This document shows, piece by piece, positions 6,341 through 42,817 of a stretch of DNA of 64,000 nucleotides; position 1 is the first letter of the stretch; every line of letters begins with the position of its first letter. The translations under genes and the position numbers were made by a program. The notes under the pieces were generated by a model. It was not told the DNA's origin and searched no databases. It saw only the letters and a program-made list of their open reading frames with translations. Source of the stretch: Vigna angularis (taxonomy: Eukaryota > Streptophyta > Magnoliopsida > Fabales > Fabaceae); contig NC_068980.1 in assembly GCF_016808095.1 (NCBI RefSeq), positions 4,932,501 through 4,996,500 on the forward strand, in the 5' to 3' direction.

Positions 6341-6584
6341 CGAGTGACATCCCCATGAAGTCATGAAGAACCAGACGCGCGCTCGGTCTCGACATCGCTA
6401 CTTCGGATCAACACCAGGTTTTGCAATAAGAGTAAAAAATTTCGTAATAATTCCTAAAGGCATGTCTTTTGTTTTAAGAACTTTCAGTAACGTTCAGCCC
6501 TACATCCAACCTTGACAGGTTCCAGTTTTCATTATAATTTACAGATTATAATATAGTTGTTCAACTCATATTTTTATGAGTAAA

Positions 6585-7110: not shown

Positions 7111-7139
7111 AAGGTTCAGACCTCAACTTGGTCAGGTTA

Positions 7140-7690: not shown

Positions 7691-8044
7691 AAAAGAACTC
7701 TTATCAGTCAACTACTCAACAGGTTCAACTTTGTCAGGTTCCAATGCCTTTTCATTATAAAAATAAATATTGAAGCGTTTACTTTATTTAAAAGCATATT
7801 TTTTGGAGTGAAAATGTCTTGCAGAGGAAAAAGTTTCAAAGAGAACTCTTAGCATTTTCTATTCAGTCTAAGGAACAGATCCAAACAAAACTCTTAGAGT
7901 TCGCCGCTCAGTACATAGAGCAATGAAGACTTAAAGCATCAAAGATAGACTCCCTAAATACAACGTGAACGACCTCTTTTAAAGCTCATAATAATCCCTA
8001 CGCACGTCTTTTAATAAAGAGCTTGCTCGGACCTGAGGGGCTTA

Positions 8045-8427
8045 TGTACTATATGAAGTATACCGATCGGAGTTGATTGTCATTAAGCAAGTACTAATAG
8101 GTCGATTTGCCTTATGCTCTACAAATATACAACATTAATGATTAATTATTGGGTTTGATTACCTAAAATATATTGCACTGGTGGTTAATCAATGGACGTG
8201 GCTGTCACAAGCCTTATAAGTAGACAACTGATTTCCAGGTACAATAACTTTTTTCTATTCTAATAAAATATAGATCTCTTTATCAAACATATCTGACTTG
8301 AGCGTCAGAGTGTCTTCTGCAGGTCAACAACCCATTGTAGTGGATCGCGTTCTCGGAGAGGATTGAAGATCAAAAGAGAGCAGAACAAGAAAGGACGACC
8401 GACCCTCAGACCAATTCAACCGAAACA
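8045..8427 (+). repeat. Right LTR, 383 bp
   Basis: Runs from TGTACTATAT to CCGAAACA after a G-rich polypurine tract. It differs from the left LTR at about 13 positions, mostly transitions. Confidence 0.92.
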
Positions 8428-8432
8428 ACTAC

Positions 8433-11400: not shown

Positions 11401-12227
11401 AATTGAAACTTATTATTATATTTATAATATAATAAAATGTTATAATTTTTAAAATTTTGAATTAGTTTAAATAAATTTATTATCATTTTTAAAAAAAATA
11501 AATGATTTTTTATAGATTATATTATCTTTAAATTGATATTTTAAAATTGTACTGAAAGAATTTTTTAAAACTTTTAATCTAATCTAACCCCTTTTAATAA
11601 TTAGTTAGGTTCGATTAAATTTAACATTAAAATAAATATAAAATCTCAATCTATTTGAATTCAATATTCTTTTAGTAAGTTAAGTCATGAGTTTGCACAA
11701 ATCTAATTCACTGTTCTTCCAAACTTGAAATTTCTTATCTGGATACTACCTTTACAAATGTCACCAATGAAACACAGGCTTTCACATGAATTAGAGCTTC
11801 TAAATTTCTACACGGATATAAAAATATATAATGAAAGTTTAATTAAAACCTTTATATTAATATTATATTTATTAAAAATCAATTTTTTTATTAAATATTT
11901 TTGGTTTAGAACTACAATTTGGTTTAAAATTAGGATGAAAATTTTAAGAGTAAAAAATAATATCCTTAATTTAAAATTTCAAGAGGTTAAATATTATATA
12001 AATATTAAATAAAACTTAAAACTAACGCATTCTACATTATTAAAAGAAATCATTGTAATTATTATTGTAATAAAAAACAAAACAAATATAAAAATAATTA
12101 TTTTTGCAAAAGTAAATAAATTTGACAATGATATTTTATAATTTGTATGATATTTTTATTTAATAATTGATATGATTTTTAATATTTTACGTGATTTTTT
12201 ACTTTTTAAATTTTAAACTAGTGTTAG
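8433..12227. other. AT-rich intergenic DNA
   Basis: No supported gene. The stretch at 10928-11330 is less AT-rich than its surroundings and could be remnant repeat sequence, but I recognise no domain. A 60-70 bp segment (TTTATAAATCACACATACTC type) is imperfectly duplicated around 9413-9530. Frames at 10328-10564 and 11725-12012 are simply AT-rich and give K/I/N/L/F-rich translations. Confidence 0.5.
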
Positions 12228-13717
12228 TGTAACATCCCAAAAATACAGTATAAACTATATAATAGAATAATCACATTTAATAATAATTCAGATCAGTCTT
12301 ACACTAAGTAGAGCGTACGGTTCTGGCCGAACGACCTTACAGAAAAGATACAATATTTAAACTGTACAAAAATACAAGTCTGACCGAACGGTTTACAAAA
12401 GCCAAATATCTATCGGTCATACAAATCAAAACGGGAAGGTGATCGAACAACCACCTCACTACAAAACTAAACTACTGACCGAACGTTCTACTGTTCGGTC
12501 TTAACTTCAACCTCGACCAAATTTTCTTCTTCCAGCGTATCTTCCAACAGCTCGTCCCCTTCTGCTCACATCCACACGGATGATCATTGCAACGACAAGA
12601 CGAACGTACATAACATGACAAGACAGGAAACACAGGGTAAGCTTATTTAATTTAATTCAGGCATAAACATACATTTTAAACAATCCAACACATAAGATAA
12701 ATTTCAACATACGTATCATCCAAAACCTATTACTAGACTGACTGTTCGGACTGTATGAAATCTGCGTAGCTACAGGCGTTCGTGCACCCGGGTGATGTAG
12801 TAACTGGGATGCCCTCAACAGTTGCCACCCGAGGTTAGCCCTATCTGTCCAAAGTACCCCTAAGGACTAGGACCTCCTGCCGTTCCCACACATGACCTAC
12901 CCTCCTCTACGTGAAGACGAGTACCCACGGAACATCAGGATGAACAACCAGCTTAGCATGCCCACAGTCATACTTTACAAATTCCAATATTCATTCATGA
13001 GACGTTCCTCCCCGGAACGCTCGTCCACAATCCACAACATTTCCATATCACATTTTCTTCATCTTTCATTAATAAGTATCTCGTTTAACCACCTCTTACA
13101 AAGATTCATAAGAATTCTAAATAACGAACGTTCAACCCGAACTCAGAACGAGACCGAACACGTAGAGTGAAACTGAGAGATCTCAAATTTTGAAATGAAT
13201 TAAGGCCAAGGGATTTATATCGGGTTGAGGAAGATAACAAGTACAATCATGTATCACAATAAACAATGGAACGAACGTTAATTACAACAATGAGCCAATT
13301 AGATGAACTGACTCCTGAGAGCTCCAACTGAACATCAAAAAGACCAGACCAAGTACGAAGACTCCAGAATGAAACCAATGGATAAGGATACTTCAAGACA
13401 TTCAAAACTAATACTTAGAGTGATGCACATGAAGAAACTGAACGCTTGTGAATACTTAGTTTATTTGAGTTTAGTATCAAGAAATCCAATTTCCAGTCAA
13501 AGACTGAACACTATAGGGAGCGAACCCTAGAGGGCTTGAACGAACGCTCGTATTAGAAAGTTTAGCTTAAGGAGATTGAACGAGTGCCTGGTGTGAGACC
13601 AAACACTTATTTAGGACGAGCACTTGGTATGAGACCAATTGCTACTAAACTTAAAGAAAATAGACTTGATAATTATACTTAGATACTATTGGGATAATGT
13701 TTAAAATATACAACTAA

Positions 13718-13794
<77 letters not shown>

Positions 13795-14767
13795 TACTTA
13801 AATTTATAACGGAATACAGGACACAACTATACTCTGCCGAACACTCAAACATGGTATTTCGAAATGCAGACGCTCGTCCTCAACTAGGATTCTTCCCAAA
13901 TGAAAGAATCCAATTCTAACCAAGTTCACTCAGAAAATCGAACGGTCAAAGACCATTCAGTAACGAACGTACACTTTCATAGGGGAATTTCACACTTAGG
14001 AATCATTTATCTTCAACTCATTTCTCAATACATAATGTCATAACTTTATAAATTCATATCATAATAAATTTTCATGCTTCATACAATCCATATCATAGTA
14101 AATAATCATAGTCCATATAAACAAGCATATCAGCATTCATACTTTATATACATTCAACCACTCAGCAACATGCATTCATTATCAACGAACGTACAAACGA
14201 ACATACAATTAAATTAGATAAGCTTTCCTTACCTCTAGCGTGAACGATCGTCCTAGAGACAGAAGTACGGTTCACCAGTACCAGTTCTTCTACCCTCAAT
14301 GCTCGACAATTTTCCAACTAAACCAAGAAAAATCAAAATACTCTCAGAACCACTCATTTGAAGAATGGCGATCAACACAGGAAACCAGAACTGGAGTTGC
14401 ATGTCTAGGAAAACGAACGATTGGGTGAAGAGAAAGACTTACCAGCTCAGCTTCACAAACCGAACGATTTATCTGGAAGCTCTTGACGCCGGAAGTACTT
14501 CTACGGAGAAGGGAAAGGGTGAGATTTCTTAGAGAGAAGGGAGAGCTTTTAGTGAGAAGGAGGAGAAATGAGAAATATCAGAGTTTTGGAGGAGAAGATG
14601 CATGCAGAGAGTGTGACGTGAATTTTTCAAAAACTCAGTTTTGCTAAAAACGAACGTCCGCTCCTCTGTTGATACCTGCATTCCACTATCTGATTTCTGA
14701 CTCTCCTCAGCTTGACACCTGACGTCCGTTCAGAGGAGTTTTGGGTGCGTTTTTAATGGTTCTGACA
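12228..14767 (-). mobile_element. Solo LTR, 2540 bp, Ty3/gypsy-like, minus orientation
   Basis: On the minus strand it begins TGTCAGAACC and ends GGGATGTTACA. The identical 5 bp GTTAG flanks it on both sides (12223-12227 and 14768-14772). No internal region or second LTR is present, so it is best read as a solo LTR left by LTR-LTR recombination. It shares a block with the solo LTR at 47849-50382: AGCTTACCCTG followed by GATGAYCATCC and GGATGTGAGCAG (here about 12550-12650, there about 50048-50133). The length and termini suit large plant chromovirus LTRs, but the clade is inference. Short frames inside (12892-13170, 14240-14428) are not genes. The hexamer CGAACG occurs at least a dozen times, and a long (AT)n tract lies at 13722-13792. 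Confidence 0.82.
13722..13792. repeat. (AT)n microsatellite inside the solo LTR
   Basis: About 35 uninterrupted AT dinucleotides. Confidence 0.95.
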
Positions 14768-14772
14768 GTTAG

Positions 14773-15933
14773 TCTCCACCTTTAAATTTTTATTCTAATT
14801 TTAAATCAATTCTAATCTTAAGTAAAAAATATTTTATAAAAATGTGATTCTTATTAAAAATACCGTTATAAATATTTATATAAAAAATAAACGTGATCTT
14901 AATTTAAAAAAAAAACAAAAATACTTATTTTAAAAAAGCATTAAAACTGAATTGAATAAAAACTAATAAAAACCAAATTAAATATGTGATACAGTCATAA
15001 TTTTAGATTAACTTGAAAACATTTTTTCAGATAAAAATAATTAAAAATAAAACCAAATTAACAAAAGTTAGATCTAAATTATAACCTTGAAGCCTTCTCC
15101 ATAGTTAGCTATCAATGACGGGAAGTTTGAAATTCATAAATATCAACAAATGATAATTAATAATACATAAAATAATCTGTTTTAAAATTAATTTTAAATA
15201 TACAGTTTCTTTTTTGGTTACTTTTTATTTATTTTCATTTCTTGTGTGACATTAGTAAAGGTTTACCTTTATTAATTTGACTTCAATTAATTAAAGCTAA
15301 GATGAAAAGTCAACGAATATGCGTGTAGAGAAGCATTAGTCAACTTGTTTCTGACCACCTCTGCAACTTGCGGGCGAATTTTAAAAGTTTGTCAGTCATC
15401 AGATGATATCCCTTATGATTTTATACTGATAAATAAAATTTTAAAGAAAGAAAATAACTTTTTTATACTGATAAATAAAAGTTTAAAGAAACAAAAAAAC
15501 TTTTATCTAGTTTTATAAAGTGAAAGGTGTAAACCATTACAGATATTTTTTATTGTGTTTATGTGCATATCTAAGAAAATGAAGAAGTGAAAAGGTGTTT
15601 GTTGCTGTTGAGCAGCAGTAAGGTTTGAAAATGTGTGTATTGCATTTGCAGTTGAAGAGCAGAAGGAGGAAGGAAGGCGTGTTTTCAGTTTGCACTTTAC
15701 AGCCATAGCCGCAAAATTGGTTGTCGACCCATTCAATCACCAACTCCAGGTTGAGATAAGATAGCCTCGCGGACCAAACCACATCGTATTGTTTAATAAT
15801 TTTGGTTTTCCTATAAACTCTCCCCTGAACAGTTAATTAAGCTGCTTAAATTCAATTTAACTTCAAACTTCAAAATTCAATTTAATCATCTTATCTCCTT
15901 TCGCTATCCTAATCACCATTGAATCTTTGAACT
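14773..15933. other. Upstream region of the pseudokinase gene
   Basis: AT-rich DNA with no gene. A segment of about 45 bp (TTTTATACTGATAAATAAAA type) is duplicated in tandem at 15419-15505. The last 100 bases become pyrimidine-rich (CTTCTCCTTCTTC), which fits a 5' untranslated leader for the + strand gene at 16003. No clear TATA box was identified. Confidence 0.45.
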
Positions 15934-16002
15934 TTGAACTTTGAAGACACCTTCTCCTTCTTCTTTATTTTCTCCTTCTCCTTTTCTCCGTCTTCGTCGC
16001 TT

Positions 16003-17313
16003 ATGTGCAAGACAAAGATGGCGACCAACGCCTCAAGTCCCACTCCCACACCGCGATTACAACAACGCCCCACCCAAAGCCCAAGAACATCCTCCCCAAG
16101 GTCCACACTCAGGCCCAATCCTGGGCCCACCACTTCTTTCTCAGACAAACCCTCCACCTCTTACGCCTCCACCGCCAGCGCTCCCTACAGCGGCTCCACC
16201 GGCTACCGTCTCTCCTCCGACACCTCCATTGCCAGCCGCACCTCCCTCACCTCTCTCCGCGACACCCTCCCAGAAAACCCTCACATCTACGACTTCTCCG
16301 AAATCTGCGCCGCCACCAACAACTTCCTCGCCAAGCGACACTCCTCCTCCACCCCCTGCTGGCGCTGCACTCTCCGCGGAGCAGACGTCATTGTCTTCCA
16401 GCGCAAGTTCATCCGCAAACTCCAGACGAATCAGCTCCAGCAACTGCTCTCCGTCGTCTGCCGCAGCCACCACGTCAGCATCATCAAACTCCTCGGCGCC
16501 TCCGTCTCCGGCGACCACATCTACCTCGTCTACGACTTCGTCAACGGCGCCAGCCTCTCCGATTGTCTCCGCAACAAGAACAACCCGCGCTTCACCGTTC
16601 TCTCCACGTGGATGTCGCGAATGCAGGTCGCCACGGATCTCGCTCACGCACTCGATTACATTCACAACAAAACCGGTTTGAACATCAATTTCGTCCACAA
16701 CCGTATCAAATCCAGCGGCATCATCGTCACGGAACCTTCTTTCAACGCTAGGGTTTGCCATTTCGGCACCGCGCAGCTCTGCGGCGAAATCGACCTCGAA
16801 AACGAACAATTAGGCGAAATCAGTGAGATAGGGGAGAAATTTCCGCCGTCCCCAGCGAGGTCCAGGCAATTCGAGGGCGTGCGGGGGTACATGGCGCCGG
16901 AATTTCAAGCCTCCGGCGTAGCGACTCAGAGGTCTGATATATACGCTTTCGGAGTGGTGTTGTTGGAGCTCCTCTCCGGGGAGGAGCCACTGAAGTTTAA
17001 ATATGACGAGAAGACGCGCGAATTTTTGAGGACGTCGGTGATCGAGACGGCGAGAGGCGTGGTTGACGGCGGCGATGGTGGCGTGCAGGGGAAGCTGAGG
17101 AAGTGGGTTGATCAGAGATTGAAAGATTCGTTTCCCGTGGACGTAGCGGAGAAGCTGACACGTGTGGCACTGGAGTGCGTACACGTGGATCCAGATAAGC
17201 GACCGAACATGGGACAGGTGGCAGGGAAGATCTCGAAGTTTTATTTGAAGTCGAGGATGTGGTCGGACAGTATTAAGGTTCCTGATCTCACTGTTTCACT
17301 GGGTCCTCGTTGA
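16003..17313 (+). CDS. Receptor-like cytoplasmic pseudokinase (LysM-RLK-related kinase fold)
   Basis: A single-exon 436-residue protein. Residues 1-95 are low in complexity and rich in Ser/Thr/Pro. The kinase fold runs from about 97 (YDFSEICAATNNF) to 410. No signal peptide, LysM or membrane segment is present, so it is a cytoplasmic RLCK type. The pattern recalls the LysM-receptor-like cytoplasmic kinases (Arabidopsis At3g57120 type, from memory). Key catalytic residues are lost: the glycine-rich loop is absent (KRHSSSTPCWRCTLRG), VAIK reads VIVF, HRD with its metal-binding Asn reads HNRIKSSG (232-239), and DFG reads HFG (253-255). The C-lobe scaffold remains intact (GYMAPE 295-300, SDIYAFGVVLLELLSG 311-326). 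It probably acts as a scaffold or allosteric partner rather than a phosphotransferase. I chose the ATG at 16003 (MCKTKMA; Cys2 could be acylated). An in-frame ATG at 15934 would add 23 residues translated from the CT-rich leader. Confidence 0.88.
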   Translation: MCKTKMATNASSPTPTPRLQQRPTQSPRTSSPRSTLRPNPGPTTSFSDKPSTSYASTASAPYSGSTGYRLSSDTSIASRTSLTSLRDTLPENPHIYDFSEICAATNNFLAKRHSSSTPCWRCTLRGADVIVFQRKFIRKLQTNQLQQLLSVVCRSHHVSIIKLLGASVSGDHIYLVYDFVNGASLSDCLRNKNNPRFTVLSTWMSRMQVATDLAHALDYIHNKTGLNINFVHNRIKSSGIIVTEPSFNARVCHFGTAQLCGEIDLENEQLGEISEIGEKFPPSPARSRQFEGVRGYMAPEFQASGVATQRSDIYAFGVVLLELLSGEEPLKFKYDEKTREFLRTSVIETARGVVDGGDGGVQGKLRKWVDQRLKDSFPVDVAEKLTRVALECVHVDPDKRPNMGQVAGKISKFYLKSRMWSDSIKVPDLTVSLGPR

Positions 17314-18336
<1,023 letters not shown>

Positions 18337-18339
18337 TAT

Positions 18340-18670
18340 TATGCTCAAAAGGGAGTCCCTACCGTTTGTTGCTCAACATGAGAAAAAGCTCTCAGGCTAT
18401 TAAACTCAAAAGGAAATCCTCACCGATCATTGCTCAGCGTAAGAAAAGACTATTGGGCTATTATGCTCAAAAGGGAGCCCCTATCGCTCGTCGCTCAACA
18501 TAGGAAAAGGTTCTTGGGCTCTTAAGCTCAAAAGGGAATCCCTACCGCTCGTCGCTCAGCGTAGGAAAAGGTTCTCGAGCTCTTAAACTCAAAAGGGAAT
18601 CCCTATCGCTAGTCGCTTAACGTAGGAAAAGGTTTTCGGGCTTTTAAACTCAAAAGGGAATCTCTACCGC
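18340..18670 (+). repeat. 61 bp tandem repeats, left partial copy of the interior
   Basis: About five copies of a unit carrying GCTCAAAAGGGAATCCCTAC, then CGCTCGTCGCTCAGCG and TAGGAAAAGGTTCTCG. The same array recurs at 21520-22435. Confidence 0.8.
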
Positions 18671-18784
18671 TCAACAAGTCCAGTCCTTTCCCGCTCGGAC
18701 CACCTACGTTTAGCTTTATCAAGTTCCAATGCCTTCTCATTATAAAAATAAAATATTAAATATTTTATTTAACCCATATTCTTG

Positions 18785-19156
18785 TGAAATATACCGATCG
18801 GAATTAATTGTCATTATGGACATTAACAGGTATTAATAGGTCATATTGCCTTACGCTTTACAAATATACGGTATTATTGGGTTTGATTGCCTAAAAATAT
18901 ATTGCACTAATGGTTAATCAATGGACTTAGCTGTCACAAGTCCTATAAATATACAATTGATGTCCAGGTACAATGATCCTTTTCTATCATAATAAAATAG
19001 ACCTCTCTTTATGAAACATATCTGACTTGAGCGTCGGAGTGTCTTCTGCAGGTCAACAACTCATCAAAGTTGATTGCATTCTAGAAGAGGATTGAAGATC
19101 AAAAGAGAGCAGAGCAAGGAAGGACAACCGACCCTCAGACCAATTTAACCGAAACA
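18785..19156 (+). repeat. Middle LTR, 5'-truncated
   Basis: Matches 22766-23149 from TGAAATATACCGAT to CCGAAACA. It lacks the terminal TGTACTATA and abuts interior sequence (ACCCATATTCTTG) through a deletion junction. The primer-binding-site sequence follows directly. Confidence 0.85.
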
Positions 19157-19369
19157 TTTTGGCACCCACCGTGGGGTCGAGCGACATCCCCATGAAACCA
19201 TGAGGAACCAGACATGTAGACGTGCGCTCGGCCTCGACATTGCTACTTTAGATCAATACCAGGTTTTGCAACAAGAGTACAAAATTCCATAATAATTTCT
19301 AAAGACATGTCTTTTGTTTTGAGAACTTTCAAGAACGTTCAACCTTACATCCAACCTTGTCAGGTTCCA

Positions 19370-20060
19370 ATACTTTTTATTATAATTTATAAATTATAAT
19401 TTTTATTTTGTTTAACTCATATTTTTGTGAGTAAAAATATCTTCCATAGGAAGGTTCAGTCTTACATTCAACCTTGTCATGTTCCACTTTTTATTATAAT
19501 TTATAAATTATAATATATTGAAGCATTTATTTTATTTTGTTTAACTCATATTTTTGTGAGTAAAAATAACCTTGTCAGGTTCCACTTTTTATTATAATTT
19601 ATAAATTATAATATATTGAAGCATTTATTTTATTTTGTTTAACTCATTTTTGTGAATAAAAATATCCTTTACAGGAAGATTCAGTCTTACGTTTAACCTT
19701 GTCAGGTTCCACTTTTTATTATAATTTATAAATTATAATATATTGAAGCATTTATTTTATTTTGTTTAACTCATTTTTGTGAATAAAAATATCCTTTACA
19801 GGAAGATTCAGTCTTACGTTTAACCTTGTCAGGTTCCACTTTTTATTATAATTTATAAATTATAATATATTGAAGCATTTATTTTATTTTGTTTAACTCA
19901 TATTTTTGTGAGTAAAAATATCCTTTACAGGAAAGTTCAGTCTTAAGTTCACCCTTGTCAGGTTTCACTTTTTATTATAATTTATAAATTATAATATATT
20001 GAAGCATTTACTTTATTTTGTTTAACTCATATTTTTGTGAGTAATGTGCAGGACTCCAAC
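19370..20060 (+). repeat. ~122 bp tandem array, about 6 copies
   Basis: Units contain CCTTGTCAGGTTCCAC, TTTTTATTATAATTTATAAA, TTTGTTTAACTCAT and AAAATATCCTTTACAGGAAG. Copies of the first motif recur near 19369, 19480, 19577, 19706, 19829 and 19956, with small indels between units. Neighbouring interior sequence at 21090-21500 repeats the same motifs less regularly. Confidence 0.8.
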
Positions 20061-20125
20061 GTTCAGCCTTGTCAGGTTCTAATGGCTCTTCATTATAAAA
20101 ATAAAATATTAAATATTTTATTTAA

Positions 20126-20373
20126 GGCTTAATACCTCTTTTGGTCCCTCTTTAGGGGGGCAATGTTCAAGTCCGTTCTACCTTTTTTAAAAAATTCAAT
20201 GTGGTCCCAACTTGTGAAAAAAATGTACAATTAAATTCTTTTTGGTCACGACATTAAATATTTAACGATCCAACTGACAGCGTGGAGTGATCTGTGCAAC
20301 GTGGTTGTTTAGGTTCATAACGTGGCTGCATAAGGGGTAAACATGTGATTTTCATTAAAGTTGACGTGGCAGT
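20126..20373 (+). repeat. Left TIR of the Mutator-like element
   Basis: It is the reverse complement of 20832-21079 with only scattered mismatches and a few small indels, and it begins directly after the 9 bp duplication. Confidence 0.88.
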
Positions 20374-20523
20374 GGCAGTGATTTTCATTAAGAGGGGTTA
20401 GGGTTTGGTTTCCTCCCAATTGGTCTTTGAGGTTTGGGAAATGTTTGGGGAGACATAGGAATGGCTTCCCAAGGGTGTTCTTCGTTTTCGAAAAGCTGGG
20501 CCAAAGGATCTTCTCGTTTGCAG

Positions 20524-20830
20524 AATTCAATTTGCTCTGCAGATTTCAGCTTCAAGATCACCCAATTTGGAAGACAGCTCCTCCAAAATGCTTAACCCCA
20601 AATCGCGGTTTCTGTAACCCAAACCCTAACTCAGAATTTTTTAATCAAAACATATCGAAAACCTCAACTTCTTAAAATTATCAAATGTAAACCCTAACCT
20701 GATTTGCGAAATTCAATTTGCTCTGCAGATTTCAGTTTCAAGATCACCCAATTTGGAAGACACCTCCTCCAAAATGCTTAACCTCAAATCGCGATTTCTG
20801 CAACCCAAACCCTAACTCATAATTTTTTAA
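20524..20830 (+). repeat. Internal direct duplication in the Mutator-like element
   Basis: A segment of about 125 bp (AATTCAATTTGCTCTGCAG through CCCAAACCCTAACTCA, then AATTTTTTAATCA) occurs at about 20524-20647 and again at about 20709-20833, with few substitutions. It may derive from a captured host sequence, but the source is not recognised. Confidence 0.7.
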
Positions 20831-20831
20831 T

Positions 20832-21079
20832 CACTGCCACGTCAACTTTAATGAAAATCACATGTTTACCCCTTATGCAACCACGTTATGAACCTAAACA
20901 GCCACGTTGCACAGATCACTCCACGCTGTCAGCTGGATCGTTAAATATTTAACGTCGTGACCAAAAAGAATTTAATTGTACACTTTTTTCACAAGTTGGG
21001 ACCACATTGAACTTTTTAAAAAAGGTAGGACGGACTTGAACATTGCCTCCTAAAGAGGGACCAAAAGAGGTATTAAGCC
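20832..21079 (-). repeat. Right TIR of the Mutator-like element
   Basis: It ends GAGGTATTAAGCC and is followed by TTTATTTAA, the second copy of the target duplication. Confidence 0.88.
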
Positions 21080-21519
21080 TTTATTTAACGCATATTCTTG
21101 TGAGTAAAATATCTTGCACAGGAAGGTTCAGACCAACGTTCAACCTTATCAGGTTCTAATGTCATCTCATTATTGAATATTTTATTTAACGCATATTTTT
21201 GTGAGTAAAAATATCCTGCACAAGAAGGATAAGACCAACGTTCAACCTTATCAGGTTCTAATATCATCTCATTACTGAATATTTTATTTAAAACATATTT
21301 TTGTGAGTAAAAATATCCTACACACGAAGGTTCAGACCATTTTGTGAGTAAAAATATCCTGCACAGGAAGGTTCAATACCTTACCGCTTGGTCAGTTGGA
21401 CCATCAACGTTCAACCTTGTCAGGTTCTAATGATTTCTCATTATAAAAATAAAATATTAAGTATTTTATTTAACCCATATTTTTGTGAGTAAAAATATCC
21501 TGCGCAGGAAAAAGTTCTA

Positions 21520-22435
21520 AAAAGAACTCCTATCGCTCGCCGCTCGGCCTAGGAAAAAGTTTTGGAAAAAGAACTCCTATCAACGTAGGAAAAGGTTCTC
21601 GGGCTCTTAAGCTCAAAAGGGAATCCCTACCGTTCGTCGCTCAACGTGCGAAAAGACTCTCGGGCTATTAAGCTCAAAAGGGAGTCCCCACCGATCATTG
21701 CCCAACATAGGAAAAGGCTCTCGGGCTATTATGCTCAAAAGGGAGTCCCTACCATTCGTTGCTCAACGTGTGAAAAGGCTCTCGGGCTATTAAGCTCAAA
21801 AGGGAATCCTCACCGATCTTTGCCCAACGTAGGAAAAGGCTCTCGGGCTATTATGCTCAAAAGGGAGTCCCTACCGTTCGTCGCTCAACGTGGGAAAAGG
21901 CTCTCGGGCTATTAAGCTCAAAAGGGAGTCCCCACCGATCATTGCCCAATGTAGGAAAAGACTTTCGGGGTATTATGCTCAAAACGGAGTCCCTATCGTT
22001 TGTTGCTCAACGTGGGAAAAGGCTCTCGGGCTATTAAGCTCAAAAGGGAGTCCCCACCAATCATTGCCCAACGTAGGAAAAGGCTATCGGGCTATTATGC
22101 TCAAAAGGGAGTCCCTACCGTTAGTTGCTCAACATGGGAAAAAGTTCTCGGGTTATTAAGCTCAAAAGGGAGTCCCCACCGATCATTGCCCAGCGTAGGA
22201 AAAGGGTATCGGGCTATTATGTTCAAAAGGGAGCCCCTATCGCTCGTCGCTCAATATAGGAAAAGGTTCTCGGGCTCCTAAGCTCAACAGGGAATCCCTA
22301 CCGCTTGTCGCTCAGCGTAGGAAAAGGTTCTCGAGCTCTTAAGCTCAAAAGGGAATCCCTATAGCTTGTCGCTCAATGTAGGAAAAAGTTCTCGGACTCT
22401 TAAGCTCAAAAGGGAATCTCTACCGCTCGACCTAA
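21520..22435 (+). repeat. 61 bp tandem array, about 14-15 copies
   Basis: The unit is 61 bases by count and carries AAAAGGCTCTCGGGCTATTA, then AGCTCAAAAGGGAGTCC and CCACCGATCATTGCCCAACG. Since 61 is not divisible by three, the reading frame shifts at each copy. This explains several overlapping open frames with related translations (LSSKGSPHRSLPNVGKG type) that I do not treat as genes. Confidence 0.88.
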
Positions 22436-26792: not shown

Positions 26793-27299
26793 TTAATTGT
26801 CACGAAATCCTAAATCGGAATGTTGCATCCACTCAAAGTCGAAATGGAAAGGGGGGATGGGCTGTTCTGTCCTTGCAACCGCAGCAACGGTGACTAAGTT
26901 GGAATCCTGAGCAGTAATTGTGTCTAGTGGCACCAAGTTGGTGGTGGTGGTGTTGGCCATGAAGGTGGCGTTACTGTCCACCGAGGACATGATGGAAGGC
27001 ACAATGCCGGTGCCAGTGGCGGCCACAATGGCGGGTTCAGCCTTGTGTAAGAGCCATTCGATGGTTTCACCGTCGGTTTTCTTGCCTAGCTCACGGGTGA
27101 GTTGGAAGATACGAGCAGCACATATTGCTGATAGGCGAACTCGACGGTCTCTCCCATTCACCTTGATGTGGCGGTCGCCCTTCATGCCCCTAGAAGAACG
27201 TCTTTTGTTTCTCACCATTGAAGAACCTTCATTAGCTGAAAAAGATTCATATTCCCTCTCTACTATACTGATGTTATTCACTGAATCCATTGAATTCAT
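26793..27299 (-). CDS. Class I TCP transcription factor, short form
   Basis: A 168-residue intronless protein with a TCP bHLH-like DNA-binding domain at about residues 38-98. The basic part reads [17 protein letters not shown]. Helix I includes [13 protein letters not shown] and helix [22 protein letters not shown]. The basic region has the short class I (PCF) form, and the Cys conserved in many class I domains is present at residue 60. The usual GRGRRIRMPA reads [10 protein letters not shown]. Total length resembles Arabidopsis TCP16/TCP11 rather than the longer class I members. Family members bind GGNCCCAC-type sites in the nucleus and control cell proliferation and organ growth. A TATA-like TTTATATAAAC lies at 27335-27345, only about 36-46 bases before the chosen ATG; ATG at 27290 (Met4) is an alternative start. 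Confidence 0.92.
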
Positions 27300-28722: not shown

Positions 28723-31700
28723 TCATTTCACTGGGTTCTCTTCCAACATATCTTCATCACAGTTGTGAGGAAGACTAAAATCTGACACCTCCTCAATATC
28801 ATCTTCAGGCTAATAATGAGAGAGATATACATATGGTTACCAAATCAAAATAAGATGAAAATGTCGAACACATTCAAGACAGTCAACCTACCTGCCATAA
28901 TTCCAATAGTTGCCATAACAAGAAACCAACAATCATGACCAAGCAAAACAGCTTGCCCGCCCACGCTCCACAGAAGAGATATCTAAAAGAACAGAGACTG
29001 TCAGCACAGGTAGAAGTAACTCCTTAAGGTCATTACAGCAAGTATACTTTAAAATTGAAATGGCATCAATCTTTGAATAAAGAGGAAAACCTTAGAATTA
29101 TCATAATCATAATCATATCATGGTATTAAGCTGTTGAATGAAGATCCAGAAATACATTTCTATACCAAGTGTCAACAACCATGTGTTACTAGCAGATTAA
29201 ACCAAGTTATGGTGAAGTGGTTAACAAGGTCACGTAAGTAAAACTGAATGAACATTGGAGTTCCTATTACCGTATCAACTATATGTTAGCATCGCAAGCA
29301 AATTGAACCAATGATGTTTAGAGAGTACCGTGAGAGTCTTTCAAGAAGATTTTGGTTGGAGCACTTCAAAGCACGATCATATACAATTTCAGTCCTTTTG
29401 GCAACATCATGCCAATTGTATAGTTCTCTCATCTACAAAAATAACATTAAAAGAGGGTCTAACTTAGCCACTAAATGCATCCGAAAGACCACGTAATCAA
29501 CAACTCACCCGATTATGCATGACTTGCGGATCAATCTTTGGCAGAATAGATATTGCCTTTTGAATTGCATGTACCATATCACCAGGATCAGGCTCTGCCA
29601 AAACAATCATTTCATCGGGCAAAACCTATAAGCAAAGAAGCAAATTGGTATAAAGTCCCTCAAGATAGCAGTATACATTCTTAAACTGAACCAGTATAGA
29701 TGGAAATACTTTGCATCTACCTCAGGAACTCCTCCCACTCTTGTGCTCACTGTCAATAATCCACAACTTGCAGCTTCTAATATGGCTATACAAAAAGCTT
29801 CTGTTAAAGAACTGAAACAGTGCAAACATTATTAACGATTAAAATATATATGCAATTAAGCATTGTAATTGTAGCTGACATGAGAACCGTAACAATGAAA
29901 GAACTCTAGCGCCTAGGACTGCCCAATGTCCACACTTAGACAACAGAACTATAAATCCATTGTTCCAAAGCTTAAGGTAGAAAGAGATTTGCTACAGGAG
30001 CCAAACCTGTTTAAGAAGATGTGTCCAGATATCAGAACAGATCGAACTTGTACATGTTGCACAGCTCCCAACATTTCCACTCGATCTTGAAGTGAATGCT
30101 TTTCTCTCATCTCTTCCAACCTCACACGCTTAGGTCCATCACCTCCAATAATGAAACGAACCTTCAATTGGATATGCGTTATGCCTTTGAAAGTATATGA
30201 TTAAAAAAGAAGAAATAATCTAAATCATTTCTATAGCATTACATATTTCTCTTTGAACTTGCTCCCGGTATGTGCACATCTATAATGTAATGATAATATA
30301 TGCCTAAATCTGCCAGACACAGCTATTTGTTCTGTCAATAGATAAAAAGTTACATCACAGCCCAGACACAGCCTGAATATTTTTTGGAAATATAAGCAGA
30401 AAGTTCATTCTGGAGCACTTTTCAAAGGATTAGTAGTGTGTGCATCGGCCAAAGTACCATACAATCTTCAAAAGAAATGCCTATATACTAACTATCTGAA
30501 TGCAGCTCAAGTTGCCTATTCATGTACATTTTTTTACTGAATATTGTAAGAGGAGGATTGGGGAACATCGATCTTTCACCACCTATTTAAGCTTGGATTT
30601 TAAAATTAAATGAGATCTTTCACACATGTCTGAGTTAGCTGATAAGAATTCATTGATATTGAACAATAAATGACAAAATTAAGAAAACTATTTTTTTAAT
30701 AACATTCTTGTGTGCCCTATGTAATTCTTCATCATGAAAGTAGTCTCCAGTATGAAACTATATGACGCCCTATTTTCAATCAGATGGTAATTCTCCAACT
30801 CATCAGAAAGCATCATGAAAATAACTCATTAGGGAATGCTGTGGCTTTATAATCATAGCTGATAAACCATTGCATCACATGTTTGTTATTGCTAAAAACT
30901 CAAAAATTCAAGGATCTAAAATTACAAAAAACAGATATTTAGTGATAGCACGAATTACAAAATTATAATCCTACAAATAGAATTGAAGAAAAGGCATGGT
31001 TCAGGTATTGCATATATTTGATACACGAACTATAGCCATGAAGACCAGTACTTGGGCTTTTCTCAACAGCATCTATAATATCATTCAGTCAGACCAACAG
31101 AAAAAGTGCACAATGAAATTTTACCAAAGTTTGCAACTTTGAACACTGTAATATAAAGCTAAAGCACTCTGAACAGAGCCTTTAGCTTATTCACATCTCT
31201 TCCATGTAAGAAATTGAAATCAAAATTTCCTACTTATGCAGGGCAAATTAACAGTGTTTTCATCAACTCACATTAGGATGTAATCGGCATACTTCCGGAA
31301 TGACTTCAACAAGTAAATCAACTCCCTTTCGATAAACCAATCTGCTGATAACAACAATAACAATTTCTGGTCCGCTTGGACGATTCACTGCAGGCTTGAA
31401 AATGGAAGTGTCCACAGCATTAGGTACGACAAAAACCTTCTCAGGTGGCAAACCTGACCGCAGCACTGTGTTTTCCTTGCTTGTATGGGAAACACAAATG
31501 GCTTGACTCACATCTGCCAAGGTAAACTGTAACACCTTGTTCATGTGAATACTTCCAACATCAGAAAAACCATACAGTGAATGATCTGTAAACACAACCT
31601 TGTATCCCATGGTTCTTGCATGCATAAGAGCTTCATGACAAAATGTTGAAAAGGCTTGGTGTCCATGCACCACTGTAATTCTTTCTCTGATAAGAATAAT

Positions 31701-32498
31701 TCTAATAATTGGTAGTAATCCATAGAAGGTTGGTAATGTATTCTGCATAACAAACGGCCTCCATGGAACATAGTAGACTTTCAGACCACCAGTCATATAT
31801 CTGACCCCAGACCGATTTCCATAAGAATGAGTTGCAACCACCACCTGAATAGTCATTTTATTTGAATTCACTTCATTACAAACACCCTCAGCATAAGTAA
31901 GAAAAAAGAGTAAGTTATTTCATTCCCCTATATTTCGCATTTACAGCATAAACCTTCCATCCACATATATAACGGAAACCGATCTCATGTGTAACTAAGC
32001 CCAAGTGCCGCTAAACCTAATCAATTTGTTAACTCAAGTGTCCACTTGGTTTGCAAGTAAATCAATTTATGGAACACGTCCCAATGCTAAAGATGAGCTT
32101 AATTTACAGAACTCGTTTAAGTCAACAATTCAGAATCGATTCTACCAAAATCTAAAACAAACAGGCACTAAATTGTTGGATTGTCTACAGTCAGCGTGTA
32201 CAAGCGTGTTCACTCATTAGTAACTTGCAATTGTAAGACGGTTCATATTTTATCTCGATAAATCAAAATCTAAAAAACGCATTTGAGATTTGAGCCACCG
32301 AATCTCATCATAAAAAAAAATACAAAAGCTCTCATAATTGAATGAATGAAAGAAACAAAAAAAAAGGCTTACCTTGTGGCCTAGCTTGAGCAAACACTGT
32401 GAGAGGTAATATATGTGATTCTCCACACCACCAAAGTTGGGATAGAAAAAATCTGAGACCATCAGGATTCTATGCTTTTGAGGATCACCCATCATCAT
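28723..32498 (-). CDS. SETH2: PIG-A, catalytic subunit of GPI-GlcNAc transferase (SETH2-type)
   Basis: It transfers GlcNAc to phosphatidylinositol, the first step of GPI-anchor synthesis, on the cytosolic face of the ER. I assembled eight exons with GT-AG introns: 32373-32498, 31272-31844, 30007-30161, 29721-29811, 29509-29625, 29329-29432, 28892-28982 and 28723-28809. They total 1344 bp, giving 447 residues with all phases consistent. The N-terminal lobe starts [20 protein letters not shown] (9-28). [13 protein letters not shown] and [15 protein letters not shown] follow, then the GT4 nucleotide-sugar half with [23 protein letters not shown] and the EX7E motif (E289/E297, in [11 protein letters not shown]). 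One membrane helix lies near the C-terminus (about 399-418), followed by a short acidic tail. This length equals what I recall for Arabidopsis SETH2. A possible 5'-UTR intron spans 32516-32620. No disabling change was seen. Confidence 0.95.
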
Positions 32499-38350: not shown

Positions 38351-38353
38351 TCA
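38351..38353. repeat. 3 bp target site duplication TCA, left copy
   Basis: The matching TCA is at 42815-42817 directly after GTAGTG. Confidence 0.88.
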
Positions 38354-38395
38354 CACTACAAAAAATTAGATTTTTACCGGGGGTTATTTTTTCCG
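38354..38395 (+). repeat. Left terminal inverted repeat of the CACTA element
   Basis: CACTACAAAAAA is shared exactly with the inverted right end. GGGGTTATTTT is shared further in at nearly the same distance. Confidence 0.9.
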
Positions 38396-38660
38396 TTTCC
38401 GACGGTTTTAACCCCCGGAAAATATGTTACCCGCGGTTAGAAAAACCGTTGGGAAAACCTGCGTCGTTAAGTAATTATCGGCGGTTTTTTAAAAAACCGC
38501 CGCAATTAGCGGGGGTTTTACTAAAACCGCCGGTAACAGTGGAGGTTTTACTAAAACCGCCTGAAATAACCGGGGTTAAGCAAAACCGCCGGTAATTTGT
38601 GAGGGTTTATGAAAACCGCTGATACTTTTGAAGGTTTTTCAAAACCGCCGAAAATGTAAA
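38385..38660 (+). repeat. Subterminal repeats of the CACTA element
   Basis: About eight copies of AAAACCGCC(G) or near variants, spaced about 35-45 bases apart. Several are paired with an upstream GGTTTT to form small hairpins (for example GGCGGTTTTTTAAAAAACCG, 38480-38499). A reading frame across this stretch (38299-38595) is an artefact of the repeats. Confidence 0.85.
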
Positions 38661-38861
38661 TAATTTAATTTTTTTTATTATTCAAATTACTTGATTATCA
38701 TTAATAAACCAAAATTAAATAATATGAAACCAAAATTAAATGTAAACATTAAATATAAACCAAAATATTATTATATAAATTGTAAAGATTAGAAATACAA
38801 TTAATGTTTCTTAAAAATTAAAATTAACATGTTATGAATAATAATTATAGTTTCGTACTTC

Positions 38862-38936
38862 TTCATTATTTTCATCATTTGGTACTTCTTCATTTTATCC
38901 ATCATTTGGTTCTTCTTCATTTTATCCATCCTTTGA
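38862..38936. repeat. Short tandem repeat, ~30 bp unit
   Basis: TACTTCTTCATTTTATCCAT and its variants with CATCATTTGG occur about two and a half times in succession, within the CACTA element. Confidence 0.65.
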
Positions 38937-39148
38937 TATGCTTCCTTTTTCAAATACCTACAATATAAAACAATAATTAGTTAATAATATTTTAAAAAAA
39001 TTATTAGACGAATTTAAGAACTATTGATGGTTGAAAAATATTAAAATATGATATAATAGAAACTAAATCCAAGTATATCGATGAAAACAAAAGGTTAAGC
39101 ATTTTATGGAAAGTAAGAGAAAAAAAAACATAGATCTTGATCTTAATA

Positions 39149-39388
39149 CACTACAAAAATATCTACTATATCTTTGATATATATCAAATCATATGATTCA
39201 AATTGTGAATCTTAACTGTACGAAAGGTAAAAAATAACAATTGTCCAGATTTGCATCTTTGAAACAATATTAAACAGAACATATAAACAACTATTAATAT
39301 ATGGACATAACTTACTAAAATTTGAACAAAATGCGCAAACACGTGAAAAAAATAATATATTTTTCTAAAATTAATTATTTTTGTAGTG
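39149..39388. repeat. Possible nested CACTA-like inverted-end segment
   Basis: The segment starts CACTACAAAAAT and ends ATTTTTGTAGTG, 240 bp apart in perfect inverted orientation. It lies inside the larger CACTA element. The flanking triplets (ATA and AAT) do not match, so a target duplication is not shown. It may be a small nested deletion derivative or an internal relic of another end. Confidence 0.4.
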
Positions 39389-39606
39389 AATAATGCTTTA
39401 TTTGTTTTGGGAGAAAGGAATTAATACAATATATAGAAAAGATTTTATATCCTTTAATAATAAAGATATGATACAAGAATAAACAAAAACACTCTTAGTA
39501 ATACATATATACTTTGTGTACTACTGATTATATAAGATATGTTCCTTATTTCTATAATTAAAACAATAACATATGCAAATATCAATTATATTAGAGTATC
39601 TCATAC

Positions 39607-40193
39607 CTTTAGCGTGCTTTCATTCTTTTCCCAACTTCTCTCCAGGAAAAGATATTCAGAAAACCACATTGACCAACCAATAACCTGCACATTTTAACTT
39701 AGCAAATAGAACAACATTAACACAAATGTTGATATTATCAATGAAGAAAAAAAATGCAAGTAGGTTCAAAAGCTTCCATGTCCAATCAGGCCTGAAGCAA
39801 GCATAAATCATGTGATAAACCAAACCACCAAACAGAATCCCATCCCATTATTATCAATAGATACAAACAATAAAGCCCCATTTCATAATTCATTCCAATT
39901 TAAATCTAAGAATATCACATTTATGGTGAAATAAACCTATAAGTAGGCCCCAACTATGAGTACTTTTTTCCTAGTAAGATAATATTAAACATTTCAGAAT
40001 GACAAATGAAACATGCAACTGATTCCAATTCATATGTAAATTCCAGTATTAATTTTCTTGTGATGAATGTGAAAGAGGTCATACTAAATAAGACAATCAC
40101 AATCACCTGAGCTAAAACCCATCCAACAAGCCAATCAATGTCACTTCTGTGATTGGATATGGCAACATTCACTGTTGAAACCAGTGACACAGC
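39607..40193 (-). pseudogene. Captured LPAT2-type lysophosphatidate acyltransferase exons
   Basis: Two exon-like blocks lie in the right order on the minus strand. Block 40107-40193 (87 bp) encodes ISNHRSDIDWLVGWVLAQ at its end, ahead of a GT donor, and keeps the HX4D catalytic motif of the acyltransferase family. Block 39607-39684 (78 bp, 26 codons, with AG and GT flanks) encodes [18 protein letters not shown] and then EKNESTLK. These match ER-type 1-acyl-sn-glycerol-3-phosphate acyltransferase 2, which makes phosphatidate. In intact proteins an RSGCLGS...KFLP segment sits between these blocks; I could not find it. The EGTR-motif part and both termini are also absent. The start of the first block (AVSLVSTVNVA) does not look like the family. 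It is a non-functional fragment carried by the CACTA element. Confidence 0.82.
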
Positions 40194-40939
40194 CTGCACT
40201 AGTTCTATTTTAAACAAAAGAAAGGCTTAATTCATATATATACATATAATACCCCACTATGTGACAGGGCATATATCAAGCAGTACAAAATTTAATAAGA
40301 GAGAACGGTTCCTGAACGTATGGAAGAGGCACCAATAGCAAAATGAAGAGACTTGAAGGACTGTACCAAGTATAGGAAGATCCAGTCAAGTATTTCTATG
40401 TGGTGTTGAATTTGCATCGCAAGCCTTAACAAAGATAGGTTACACCACAAAAGCATATATTGACAAAAAAATAAGGTTAAAGTCCAATTATTTGAATGGA
40501 AAGAAAACCAGCCTGTGTCATAGGCAAGGAAACCTACACTACAACCATATACTACACTAAAAACAGTGTCTGCACCAATGTAAAGGAAATAAAACTGCAG
40601 CAACAATTTTATTAGTGAAAAAGTGACTGCACAACTTTAATGAAGGAGGTTCTTAATTCCATTCGTGAATTCCAATCCAAGGTATACATCAATTCCATAT
40701 ATAACCTTCATTATTTTACCAATTAAATAAATCCTAAAGAATGAAGTAGGTACAATACAAAGTAATTTGACAGATCATTTTATTCAAGGTATATGATTAA
40801 GTGCATATATATTCAGCACTAAAAGATTCTTTAGTCATGATTAATGTGCAGCTTTGGCCTACACCGAGAGAATTAGCACCTAGCAAGAAAAGAAAACTAA
40901 ACACAGTAGGATTAATGTTCATCATGTAATCTAAACTCT

Positions 40940-41047
40940 ATGGCTCGGTCAGGGATGATCAGAGCTTATTTCTCTTTCTCCTTCTTCATACTTCTTCAAT
41001 TCACAGTCGCCTTTGCATCTTCTTCCAACCTAATTCTTGAAATCTAA
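40940..41047 (+). other. Small signal-peptide-like frame inside the CACTA element
   Basis: A 35-codon frame reads MARSGMIRAYFSFSFFILLQ and then FTVAFASSSNLILEI before the stop. A basic start, a hydrophobic core and an Ala-x-Ala-like end look like a secretory signal peptide. That suggests another captured first exon. I do not recognise the parent gene, and a frame this short could arise by chance. Confidence 0.3.
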
Positions 41048-41336
41048 TTTACAAGAAGAGAAGAGATATGTGACTGTGAAGAAAGAAGAAGAAAAAAAAT
41101 AAACCATAAAAAAAGAGTAACAGAGAGATAGAAAGAGATGAGAACCTCCTAAACGCTTTTGTTCTGCAGCGTGCAGCGTGCGGCATGCGGCGTGGTGGCA
41201 GGTCGAATATGAAATTGCTGGAAGAATCTCGCTTAATCATTTTAGAAAAACCAAATCCTAAATAAATAAAAATAGATATACTAAAAATACTTATATCCTT
41301 ATTTGATGTATTGAAACCAAGAAGAAGCATGCATAC

Positions 41337-41398
41337 CTTCCTTGATACTAATCTAATTGTTTGCAGTGCATCCTTAGAAAATATAGCAGTCCGTAATT
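41337..41398 (-). other. Exon-like block of unknown origin inside the CACTA element
   Basis: On the minus strand, CTTGTTGCAG precedes and GTATGC follows a 62 bp block with one frame open throughout (LRTAIFSKDALQTIRLVSRK). Good splice-site contexts on both sides, beside other captured exons, suggest a fourth captured gene piece. The family is not recognised. Confidence 0.35.
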
Positions 41399-41554
41399 CT
41401 GCAACAAGTAGTTGCATCCAATAAATAAAAATTTAGCAGAACGAATAATGAAAACACATGCCTTTTTTCAAAGTAAATATTTGTTCAAGCTTAATGATAT
41501 AAAAGTAAGGAGAAATGTGACAAGAATCATCATGTTACGTTCGTTGAGCTTACT

Positions 41555-42076
41555 TGGTTGCTAAGCCTTCAAGGTTTCCTCCATCACCAATGGTGATATA
41601 AACAGGGGCTGATTGATAATTTATAGGAGTGCAAATGCCAAATGCAAAATGCTATTTGGCACCATTTGAAAAGGTACGGTTTCACCCTGCAACAAAGTGT
41701 TCATCTATGTTAAAAACTCTATTCTTACGAACATTTGGACTGGGTAAATGCATTACACCAAATTTAAAATTTTTCGTTGAGCAAAACAGAAAGAAATTTT
41801 TCAGATAATTGAAACCAGATAAAGTGAATTGGTTTGAGAAGCTTACAATTTCTGGAGCAAAATCAATTTCATGGTTCCCTGCAGTCCAAATCCATGGTTG
41901 ATATGCAACACTTCTTTCTGTAAACCTTCCCCAAGTATCCCACCTCATGTTATCATGATTCGGGTAGTTATCAGCATAAGAGAGGTCGCCAACAAACAGT
42001 ACAGTTTCTCCTTTTCTTGGACTCAATTCATAGTGAAAAAGAGTCACATTTGAATCAAAACTCTGACCAAGATCCC
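41555..42076 (-). pseudogene. Captured purple acid phosphatase exons with internal deletion
   Basis: The block 41847-42076 has an AG acceptor and GT donor. It encodes [20 protein letters not shown], then [13 protein letters not shown] and [16 protein letters not shown], which are the first metal-binding motifs (GDLG, GDLSY, GNHE) of plant high-molecular-weight purple acid phosphatases. The next block, 41555-41686, starts GETVPF as in the family but then jumps to [20 protein letters not shown] and NLEGLAT in another frame. The stretch normally lying between, with the remaining metal ligands (VxxH-type and GHxH motifs), is gone. N- and C-terminal exons are also missing. It cannot encode a working enzyme. 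Confidence 0.9.
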
Positions 42077-42251
42077 CTACAAATAATGTCACACCAATTT
42101 ACAACAAAAATATTATCACTAACACAAGTATAATGCTTCAAAACCTACAAAACAACATTTGGGAAGGGATAGTGATCACAGATAACAAAAGTAGAATAAC
42201 TGAAAAATTTATCGTAAAACCCTAGTCTTAGTCTCCCACCTTTCTTCCCCA

Positions 42252-42645
42252 ATGGAGGTCAAAGTGAAGCTGCGCCTCGCAGACGCTAACGCCCACCGCC
42301 GTGTCACCAGCTTGCTCTCCCCCTTCCACGTCGTCACCCACCGAAAAAAACCTCTTCTTCGACGGTGCTGTGTCCGAGCCCTCTAAGCGTCGCGCTGTGC
42401 TGCGCTTGCACTTCTACGGTGACGACGAGCGGTGCGTCGTTTCGCTGAAGGCTCGAGCGGTGCTGGTGGACAGCGTCAGTCGCGTAGACGAGGATGAGAA
42501 GGATCTGGACCCACGGGTCATGCACGAATGCGTTGCAGAGCCTGGGAAGTTGGGATCGGTGGAATCTAGGGTTTTGCAGAAAGTGAAGGAGGACTTTGGA
42601 ACTGAAAAGGGGTTTACAGGATTGGGAGGGTTTGGGAGAAGATAA
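42252..42645 (+). pseudogene. Captured TTM3-type triphosphate tunnel metalloenzyme exon, frameshifted
   Basis: The frame opens with MEVKVKLRLADANAHRRVTS and continues to HVVTHRK. Homology then carries on in the +1 frame (NLFFDGAVSEPSKRRAVLRL, CVVSLKARAVLVDSVSRVDE, ESRVLQKVKEDFG), ending at GFTGLGGFG. These are the N-terminal two-thirds of plant TTM3, a CYTH-fold tripolyphosphatase. One extra base in the A7 run at 42344-42350 explains the frame switch. The CYTH signature ExExK reads EVKVK, so its second Glu is Lys. The C-terminal part, with its remaining charged tunnel residues, is missing. The upstream 42080-42251 may be its captured leader. A minus-strand frame overlapping here is a shadow. 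Confidence 0.9.
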
Positions 42646-42749
42646 AAAAGAAAAACAGAGTTTCAAACTAAACGAAAGACAACGAAGAGGAACTGGGGTT
42701 TACAATAATTAATCAGAAAAATTATTTTAAAAAAATAAATAAATGTTTA

Positions 42750-42814
42750 GGGGCGGTTTTTACTTATAAACCGCCGGAAAATAACCCCTCTTAAAATATA
42801 CTTTTTTTGTAGTG
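42750..42814 (-). repeat. Right subterminal and terminal repeat of the CACTA element
   Basis: GGGGCGGTTTTTACTTATAA followed by ACCGCCGG forms a hairpin, then ATAACCCC, then TTTTTTTGTAGTG. It mirrors the left end. Confidence 0.88.
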
Positions 42815-42817
42815 TCA

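Follow-up and report, generated by a model that had tools for sequence, protein, structure and literature searches.

The window analysed here, a stretch of 64,000 nucleotides from Vigna angularis (C11:4932501-4996500), contains at positions 38354-42814 a non-autonomous CACTA transposon of the Pack-CACTA type. It carries pieces from four unrelated genes, namely LPAT (1-acyl-sn-glycerol-3-phosphate acyltransferase), an ABCB25-like transporter, purple acid phosphatase (PAP) and TTM3, and is probably a composite that a CACTA transposase from the same genome mobilizes in trans. Seen directly were the ends and target duplications, the sister copies and parents, the 3' module common to several elements, the different blocks in the middle, and an inner family-type terminus next to LPAT intron. 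An earlier note, drawn up from the letters of the window, had described a multi-gene Pack-CACTA; this was right, and the notion that its pieces were gathered stepwise was supported by the related elements of the genome.

The terminal bases of the window element matched at 12 of 12 positions (CACTACAAAAAA) and TCA stood on each side, confirming the CACTA ends and the duplication described in the earlier note. Perfect 3-bp duplications were encountered in 12 of the 13 family members examined (10/10, plus two of three further relatives), the thirteenth, L048, having decayed ends. Since a random 3-mer match had a probability of 0.025 here, the duplication goes beyond chance. The subterminal ACCGCC repeats were also borne out: ACCGCC/GGCGGT occurred eight times in the outer 300 and 100 bases, compared with a mean of 0.39 and a maximum of four in first-order simulations (eight or more in 0/2000). 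When all six frames of the element were scanned against Pfam (E up to 1, stops as X), no transposase was revealed, in line with the absence of a transposase frame noted earlier; only Metallophos, from PAP, was above the cut-off, and Metallophos_C and FeoB_C were below it. Domains FeoB_C (PF07664), GhoT_OrtT (PF10753), TMEM213 and DUF1619_N were rejected as compositional, below cut-off matches. The two orientations reported earlier do coexist, the TTM3 piece being on the plus strand and the LPAT, ABCB and PAP pieces on the minus strand. As no Pfam match at E 0.01 was found in the 4,985 bp flanking the window copy on each side, this copy seems to be intergenic.

Three source genes, perhaps five, had been proposed for the element. 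LPAT, PAP and TTM3 were recovered as such, and the fourth, an ABCB25-like exon, had gone unnamed. The genome search yielded an intact TTM3 parent and other parent loci, which were read over the whole frame for TTM3 and over exons or parts of genes for PAP, the ABCB25-like transporter and LPAT. These sources were located on separate contigs (TTM3 on C1, LPAT on C3/C10, PAP on C5 and the ABCB25-like gene on C7); inside the window no parent was encountered, comparison of the element with the remainder giving short matches only (best E 0.006). The pieces did not continue past their ends but stopped sharply, while the parent loci ran on. Introns had been captured along with exons in the case of PAP and LPAT, which designates genomic DNA as the source. 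The claim that exons had kept their splice sites held for LPAT and PAP but not for TTM3, whose piece has no splice site because it lies inside one coding stretch and which, in this copy, is out of frame after a 2-bp loss.

The TTM3 piece was readily recognized (E 7.1e-24 with a solved TTM3-like structure; 93% identity, with 95% of the query covered, to a TTM3-like protein of Vigna umbellata). Its parent on C1 displayed an intact frame of 199 codons, from which a sharp-edged stretch was captured. The 2-bp loss that breaks the frame was the same in nine of the ten copies holding the start, and L016 had lost 3 bp at that place. Summed over ten related copies, 28.5 synonymous changes on about 92 sites and 56.5 non-synonymous changes on about 287 sites separated the copies from their consensus; between this consensus and the parent, the non-synonymous (dN) and synonymous (dS) divergences were 0.047 and 0.139, which was not taken as a sign of constraint. 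The PAP exon matched PAP chains of the kidney-bean type (E 8.9e-48) and was accompanied by the remnant of a later PAP exon. Three tandem copies on C5 (L040/L041, C5:40.42-40.43 Mb), with 94, 94 and 89% identity in the main stretch, still contain the 870 bp (coding sequence included) that the element has lost, and are the likely parents of this piece. The ABCB piece matched ABC transporter B family member 25 at E 0.0086, and its genomic parent exon on C7 did so at E 6e-05.

For LPAT the domain evidence was weak: the joined exons gave a Pfam match at E 0.001, which did not reach the cut-off, and the pieces had no real match to solved structures. The exon pieces matched protein P0150, named 1-acyl-sn-glycerol-3-phosphate acyltransferase at its source (E 4.7e-6), and 23 of 28 residues of one piece were found in the clover LPAT2-like protein P0165. 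The identity was settled by the genomic LPAT locus on C3, where three consecutive exons were open, the middle one corresponding to the exon missing from the element. The C10 locus displayed the same exon loss and the same 5' fusion as the element and, past 39389, ran on into LPAT intron instead of element DNA, which makes it a better donor than C3. Most likely, the LPAT piece came from this already degenerate C10 copy and not directly from the C3 gene. Part of the LPAT intron (39392-39574) resembles, at 76-80%, upwards of 15 further places, a pattern that an old dispersed repeat would give. The captured pieces are not expected to yield a working enzyme.

The TTM3 piece had 12 matches in the genome, which were the window element, ten further elements and the parent gene. 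Four sisters were full-length (L009 and L012 on C8, L010 on C2, L011 on C9), with the same termini as the window element and their own 3-bp duplications; the ends are of the same kind as in the window element, one of them (L012) with CACTG. L013 to L017 had kept the 3' module around a different middle, no 5' end being present within the stretch fetched for L014, and L019 was heavily deleted. All elements with both ends found (10/10) displayed perfect 3-bp duplications, involving eight different triplets. Two pairs of copies look as if they had landed in like repeats: AAGACTTTGTC is common to the left flanks of L015 and L017, and ATGTATGTATTAA to the right flanks of L012 and L019.

The 3' module with ABCB, PAP and TTM3 (41222-42814) was common to ten elements (window, L009-L017), and the middle block consisted of LPAT in five of them, of a block bearing a P450-reductase (CPR) piece, with a parent on C1, in four (L013, L014, L016, L017) and of other DNA in L015. 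It is this combination of a shared module with LPAT, CPR or other middle blocks that supports stepwise gathering. Pairwise identities among the five full-length copies were 97.3-99.0% for the 5' module, 99.2-99.7% for the LPAT block and 98.0-99.6% for the 3' module, so that similarity was highest in the LPAT block and lowest in the 5' module. An unrooted tree of the 3' module separated the five full-length copies from the other five (support 0.995). At breakpoint B (41222), the left-hand sequences differed among the LPAT type, the CPR type and L015, and just before it L015 and the CPR type had ACTTTTT in common and nothing more. In L015 (C3:24.56 Mb) the 5' end was that of a different CACTA family, with 70% identity across 645 bases, and about 3 kb of unassigned DNA separated it from the 3' module. 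The left-hand differences at 41222 together with this 5' end indicate that modules were exchanged between elements. Window positions 39788-41093 recurred in L048 at 98% in another order, and partly in L049, which gives this block a history of its own.

An inner terminus was found at the boundary of the LPAT piece. The 240-bp stretch 39149-39388 ends in CTAAAATTAATTATTTTTGTAGTG, a common CACTA 3' terminus. No ACCGCC-type motif was found in the 300 bases before it, and the native 3' ends read in three relatives displayed three, two and one ACCGCC repeats in their last 300 bases. The base after the inner terminus belongs to LPAT intron, and the LPAT sequences of C10 and C3 are unbroken at that point; AAT at the 39389 junction is placed as a 3-bp duplication would be, with one side visible. 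At least 41 loci with the 5' module were gathered (40 of 421 candidates scored). In eight relatives, this module continued unbroken past the site where the full-length copies break off, into one common sequence. Among the 100 listed of 163 inner-type termini, one was present within 12 kb of 14 of the 41 listed 5'-module loci, always in the same orientation (0 opposite), with nine spacings of 4.1-6.3 kb and, in the five full-length copies, of 1.04-1.07 kb. The start of the 240-bp stretch, CACTACAAAAATA with its following bases, was found at five genome sites (up to two mismatches), its first base being T in L012. A nested mini-CACTA covering the 240 bp was considered and discarded, its left end being private to five copies and its right end being the common family terminus; for the same reason 38354-39388 was read as one inner element, hereafter element A. 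Such an arrangement would be expected if a smaller relative had inserted into DNA that was later enclosed.

A source of transposase for these ends may be at hand. Transposase_21 was abundant in the genome (150 Pfam matches listed of 1669 candidates), many matches being part of long open frames. Among the 150 listed, nine had an inner-type terminus 3.3-8.3 kb upstream and facing them and one displayed another arrangement, the pairing using 100 listed termini out of the 163 genome sites found. This suggests a partner transposase family for the ends of the element.

A probable history of the composite is as follows. An older Pack-CACTA would have gained the ABCB, PAP and TTM3 pieces and then spread, and a smaller relative, element A, would have landed in a degenerate LPAT copy. 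Element A would have lost its 3' subterminal repeats, leaving an inner end that could not be used. Transposase could then have paired the 5' end of A with the 3' end of the older element, moving the intervening DNA as one unit, and the composite would have spread to its present five sites. This history fits the model of capture through neighbouring insertions that is described in PMC8903248. Taken together, we tentatively suggest that the family records stepwise capture of this kind, with the repeat-less inner 3' terminus as the fusion point, an unbroken donor-like site and relatives having other gene blocks behind the same 5' module still preserved, and at least one PAP-CPR gene model that may be expressed; the odds of this joint reading are rather below even.

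Several observations weigh against this history. None of the 150 listed Transposase_21 matches was within 50 kb of the 41 listed 5'-module loci, and no autonomous mother element carrying this 5' end was encountered among them. None of the 14 listed pairs of 5' module and terminus consisted of element A alone. The inner CACTACAAAAATA at 39149, private to five copies, is left unaccounted for, no matching 3-bp duplication flanks 39149-39388, and L013 also leaves the common sequence near 39148. Positions 40490-41221, between LPAT and the 3' module, are patchwork, part of which is also present near another CACTA-like end, and for this reason the adjacency of A and the older element can only be supposed. 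The LPAT block was in addition moved between elements by an untraced route, as is evident from L048, the PAP piece contains filler pointing to repair, and the tree of the 3' module, being unrooted, gives no direction.

It is quite possible that abortive gap repair with template switching, following excision, copied all pieces from unlinked genes between the ends. Such repair would leave filler, as seen at the PAP deletion, and small patchwork pieces, as seen at 40416-41225, with sources dispersed over contigs C1, C3/C10, C5 and C7; for the ABCB-PAP-TTM3 module, at whose edges no inner ends were seen, it is likely. It does not predict that a family-type 3' terminus should stand intact precisely where the LPAT piece meets element DNA. 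The filler and patchwork DNA suggest that repair-type events took part as well in the history with element A. Recombination among related CACTA elements, by which 5' and 3' halves were swapped and pieces united by module shuffling without fresh capture, appears somewhat unlikely as a full account: the 3' module did occur with the LPAT block, with the CPR block and with the 5' end from another family in L015, where ACTTTTT precedes breakpoint B as in the CPR type, and the LPAT block recurred in L048, but the LPAT type has no evident likeness to the others just left of the breakpoint, and reshuffling leaves the first capture unexplained. That nested insertions came together by chance, or that the assembly is in error here, to which the mosaic structure and the abundance of related repeats in the genome might point, was rejected as virtually impossible, since four sisters that keep the same order from one end to the other were found on C2, C8 (twice) and C9, each with its own duplication.

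Annotated gene models derived from the family raise the further question of whether the captured exons form a chimeric functional gene under selection. Protein P0045 (LR48_Vigan05g036800, V. angularis, 147 aa), a model from the annotation of another adzuki assembly, was found to have 139 of its residues in three exact pieces of L017 (L017:3203-7100, C11:22.79 Mb): 76 from the PAP exon, 33 from the PAP remnant and 30 from the CPR exon, the PAP-CPR join crossing the capture boundary. The proteins closest to the TTM3 piece were Vigna models that depart from TTM3 at one place, beyond which genuine Vigna TTM3 extends. Two of them, P0001 (V. umbellata) and P0003 (V. angularis), terminate in GGFGRR, and P0002 (V. 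angularis) is frame-shifted and reads into element DNA past the TTM3 boundary. P0003 was identical to sister L016 over 130/130 residues, the TTM3 piece of which has an open frame; P0002 matched L009 at 137/141 and P0001 was best with L011 (112/119). These identities, together with P0045, assign the genome to V. angularis or a very near relative. The V. mungo protein P0024, which also ends in GGFGRR, was dismissed as a sister: its identity to the C1 parent was 77.5%, against 60.6-72.5% for the copies shown, and it may therefore be unrelated to the element. Selection on a chimeric gene is nevertheless very improbable, as the TTM3 frame is broken in nine of the ten start-holding copies and L016 lost 3 bp, PAP lacks 870 bp including coding sequence, the acceptor before the second PAP piece of L017 is AA and not AG in this assembly, and gene models are not transcripts. 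As the sole hint of the chimeric or antisense RNAs proposed in the earlier note, the gene model P0045 would be compatible with chimeric transcription from captured exons, and the retained splice sites could give rise to chimeric RNAs if the element were transcribed from outside.

Multi-gene CACTA elements are already known from soybean, Arabidopsis and maize; what is new here is this element, whose parents, donor-like site and relatives are all present in a single genome. In the description of soybean Tgm-Express1 (Zabala and Vodkin; PMC1947982), five captured gene pieces are spliced into chimeric transcripts. Both are non-autonomous legume CACTA elements with intron and exon pieces of unrelated genes (five there, four identified here) and are of similar size (5.7 and 4.5 kb). 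Tgm-Express1, as described there, differs in its captured genes and in being located in an intron of F3H1, from where its exons are spliced into transcripts, whereas the window copy, known from DNA alone, has 5-kb flanks in which Pfam yielded nothing at E 0.01 and is accompanied by sisters and related forms within the same genome; the two are likened by description and not by terminal sequence. The Arabidopsis and maize Pack-CACTA (Pack-TYPE) elements, in the portions of PMC8903248 devoted to them, share CACTACAA ends, the absence of transposase, coding DNA from multiple loci and related mosaics with the present family, which in addition retains, right at the edge of a captured piece, an intact inner terminus devoid of subterminal repeats, and whose genome includes an unbroken donor-like sequence. 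In common bean, a related legume, the CACTA family pvCACTA1 (PMC4938662) is small and extremely abundant, and gene-fragment capture is not described in the account of it compared here, a comparison by description only. Within the accessible text of open-licence papers on CACTA elements, Vigna and gene fragments, no description of this element was found. According to the relevant part of a 2026 review (PMC13317346), an undiscovered capture mechanism may exist beside neighbouring insertion. The way in which CACTA elements capture host genes is not settled, and this family makes order and mechanism directly testable. Some 'TTM3-like' and 'acid phosphatase' models of adzuki and rice bean are fragments carried by transposons, with consequences for counts of genes and for studies of gene families. 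The features of the element are gathered in Table 1.

Table 1. Positions in the window of the element, its modules and its captured pieces
Feature	Position	Strand	Remarks
Whole composite Pack-CACTA element	38354..42814	none	4,461 bp
Left target-site duplication TCA	38351..38353	none	
Right target-site duplication TCA	42815..42817	none	
5' terminal inverted repeat CACTACAAAAAA	38354..38365	+	
3' terminal inverted repeat	42803..42814	-	
5' subterminal ACCGCC repeats	38480..38655	+	period of ~30 bp
3' subterminal GGCGGT/ACCGCC repeats	42752..42776	none	
Family 5' module	38354..39148	+	at least 41 loci
Inner element A (family 5' end and family-type 3' end)	38354..39388	+	1,035 bp; presumed insertion in LPAT-like DNA
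Inner CACTACAAAAATA	39149..39161	+	with following bases only in the five full-length copies
Piece in common with L048 and L049	39160..39360	+	no CACTA end there
Inner 3' CACTA terminus	39365..39388	+	163 sites in the genome with no more than 2 mismatches; 1 for the reversed pattern
LPAT fragment	39389..40165	-	two exons and introns, exon between them missing
LPAT exon	39607..39684	-	26 residues, acceptor and donor retained
LPAT exon, 3' part (ISNHRSDIDWLVGWVLAQ)	40107..40160	-	donor retained
Block contiguous with degenerate LPAT-containing C10 locus	39389..40490	-	95.3%
Scattered pieces 40416-40516, 40965-41155, 41179-41225	40416..41225	-	also on C6 by a CACTA-like end (L056)
ABCB25-like transporter fragment	41227..41473	-	exon ~41337-41399 and flanking introns; 96% to C7 locus
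PAP fragment	41473..42114	-	main stretch 89-94% to three tandem C5 copies
29 bases replacing 870 bp of PAP gene	41641..41669	-	
PAP exon GDLGQ...APEI	41847..42077	-	with acceptor and donor
TTM3 fragment with start codon	42212..42637	+	2-bp frame-breaking loss; 92% to intact C1 TTM3

Within the patchwork DNA, an open stretch at 40939-41044, tentatively signal-peptide-like, overlaps a piece shared with the C6 locus. Elsewhere in the window, the open frames at 15934-17313, 26793-27299 and 31263-31871 presumably resemble a receptor-like kinase, a TCP transcription factor and a PIG-A-like glycosyltransferase, respectively. Large tandem arrays, whose units measure about 61, 75, 81 or 98-127 bp, occupied positions 6583-22429; a phrase like AACCTTGTCAGGTTC recurs in several of the units.

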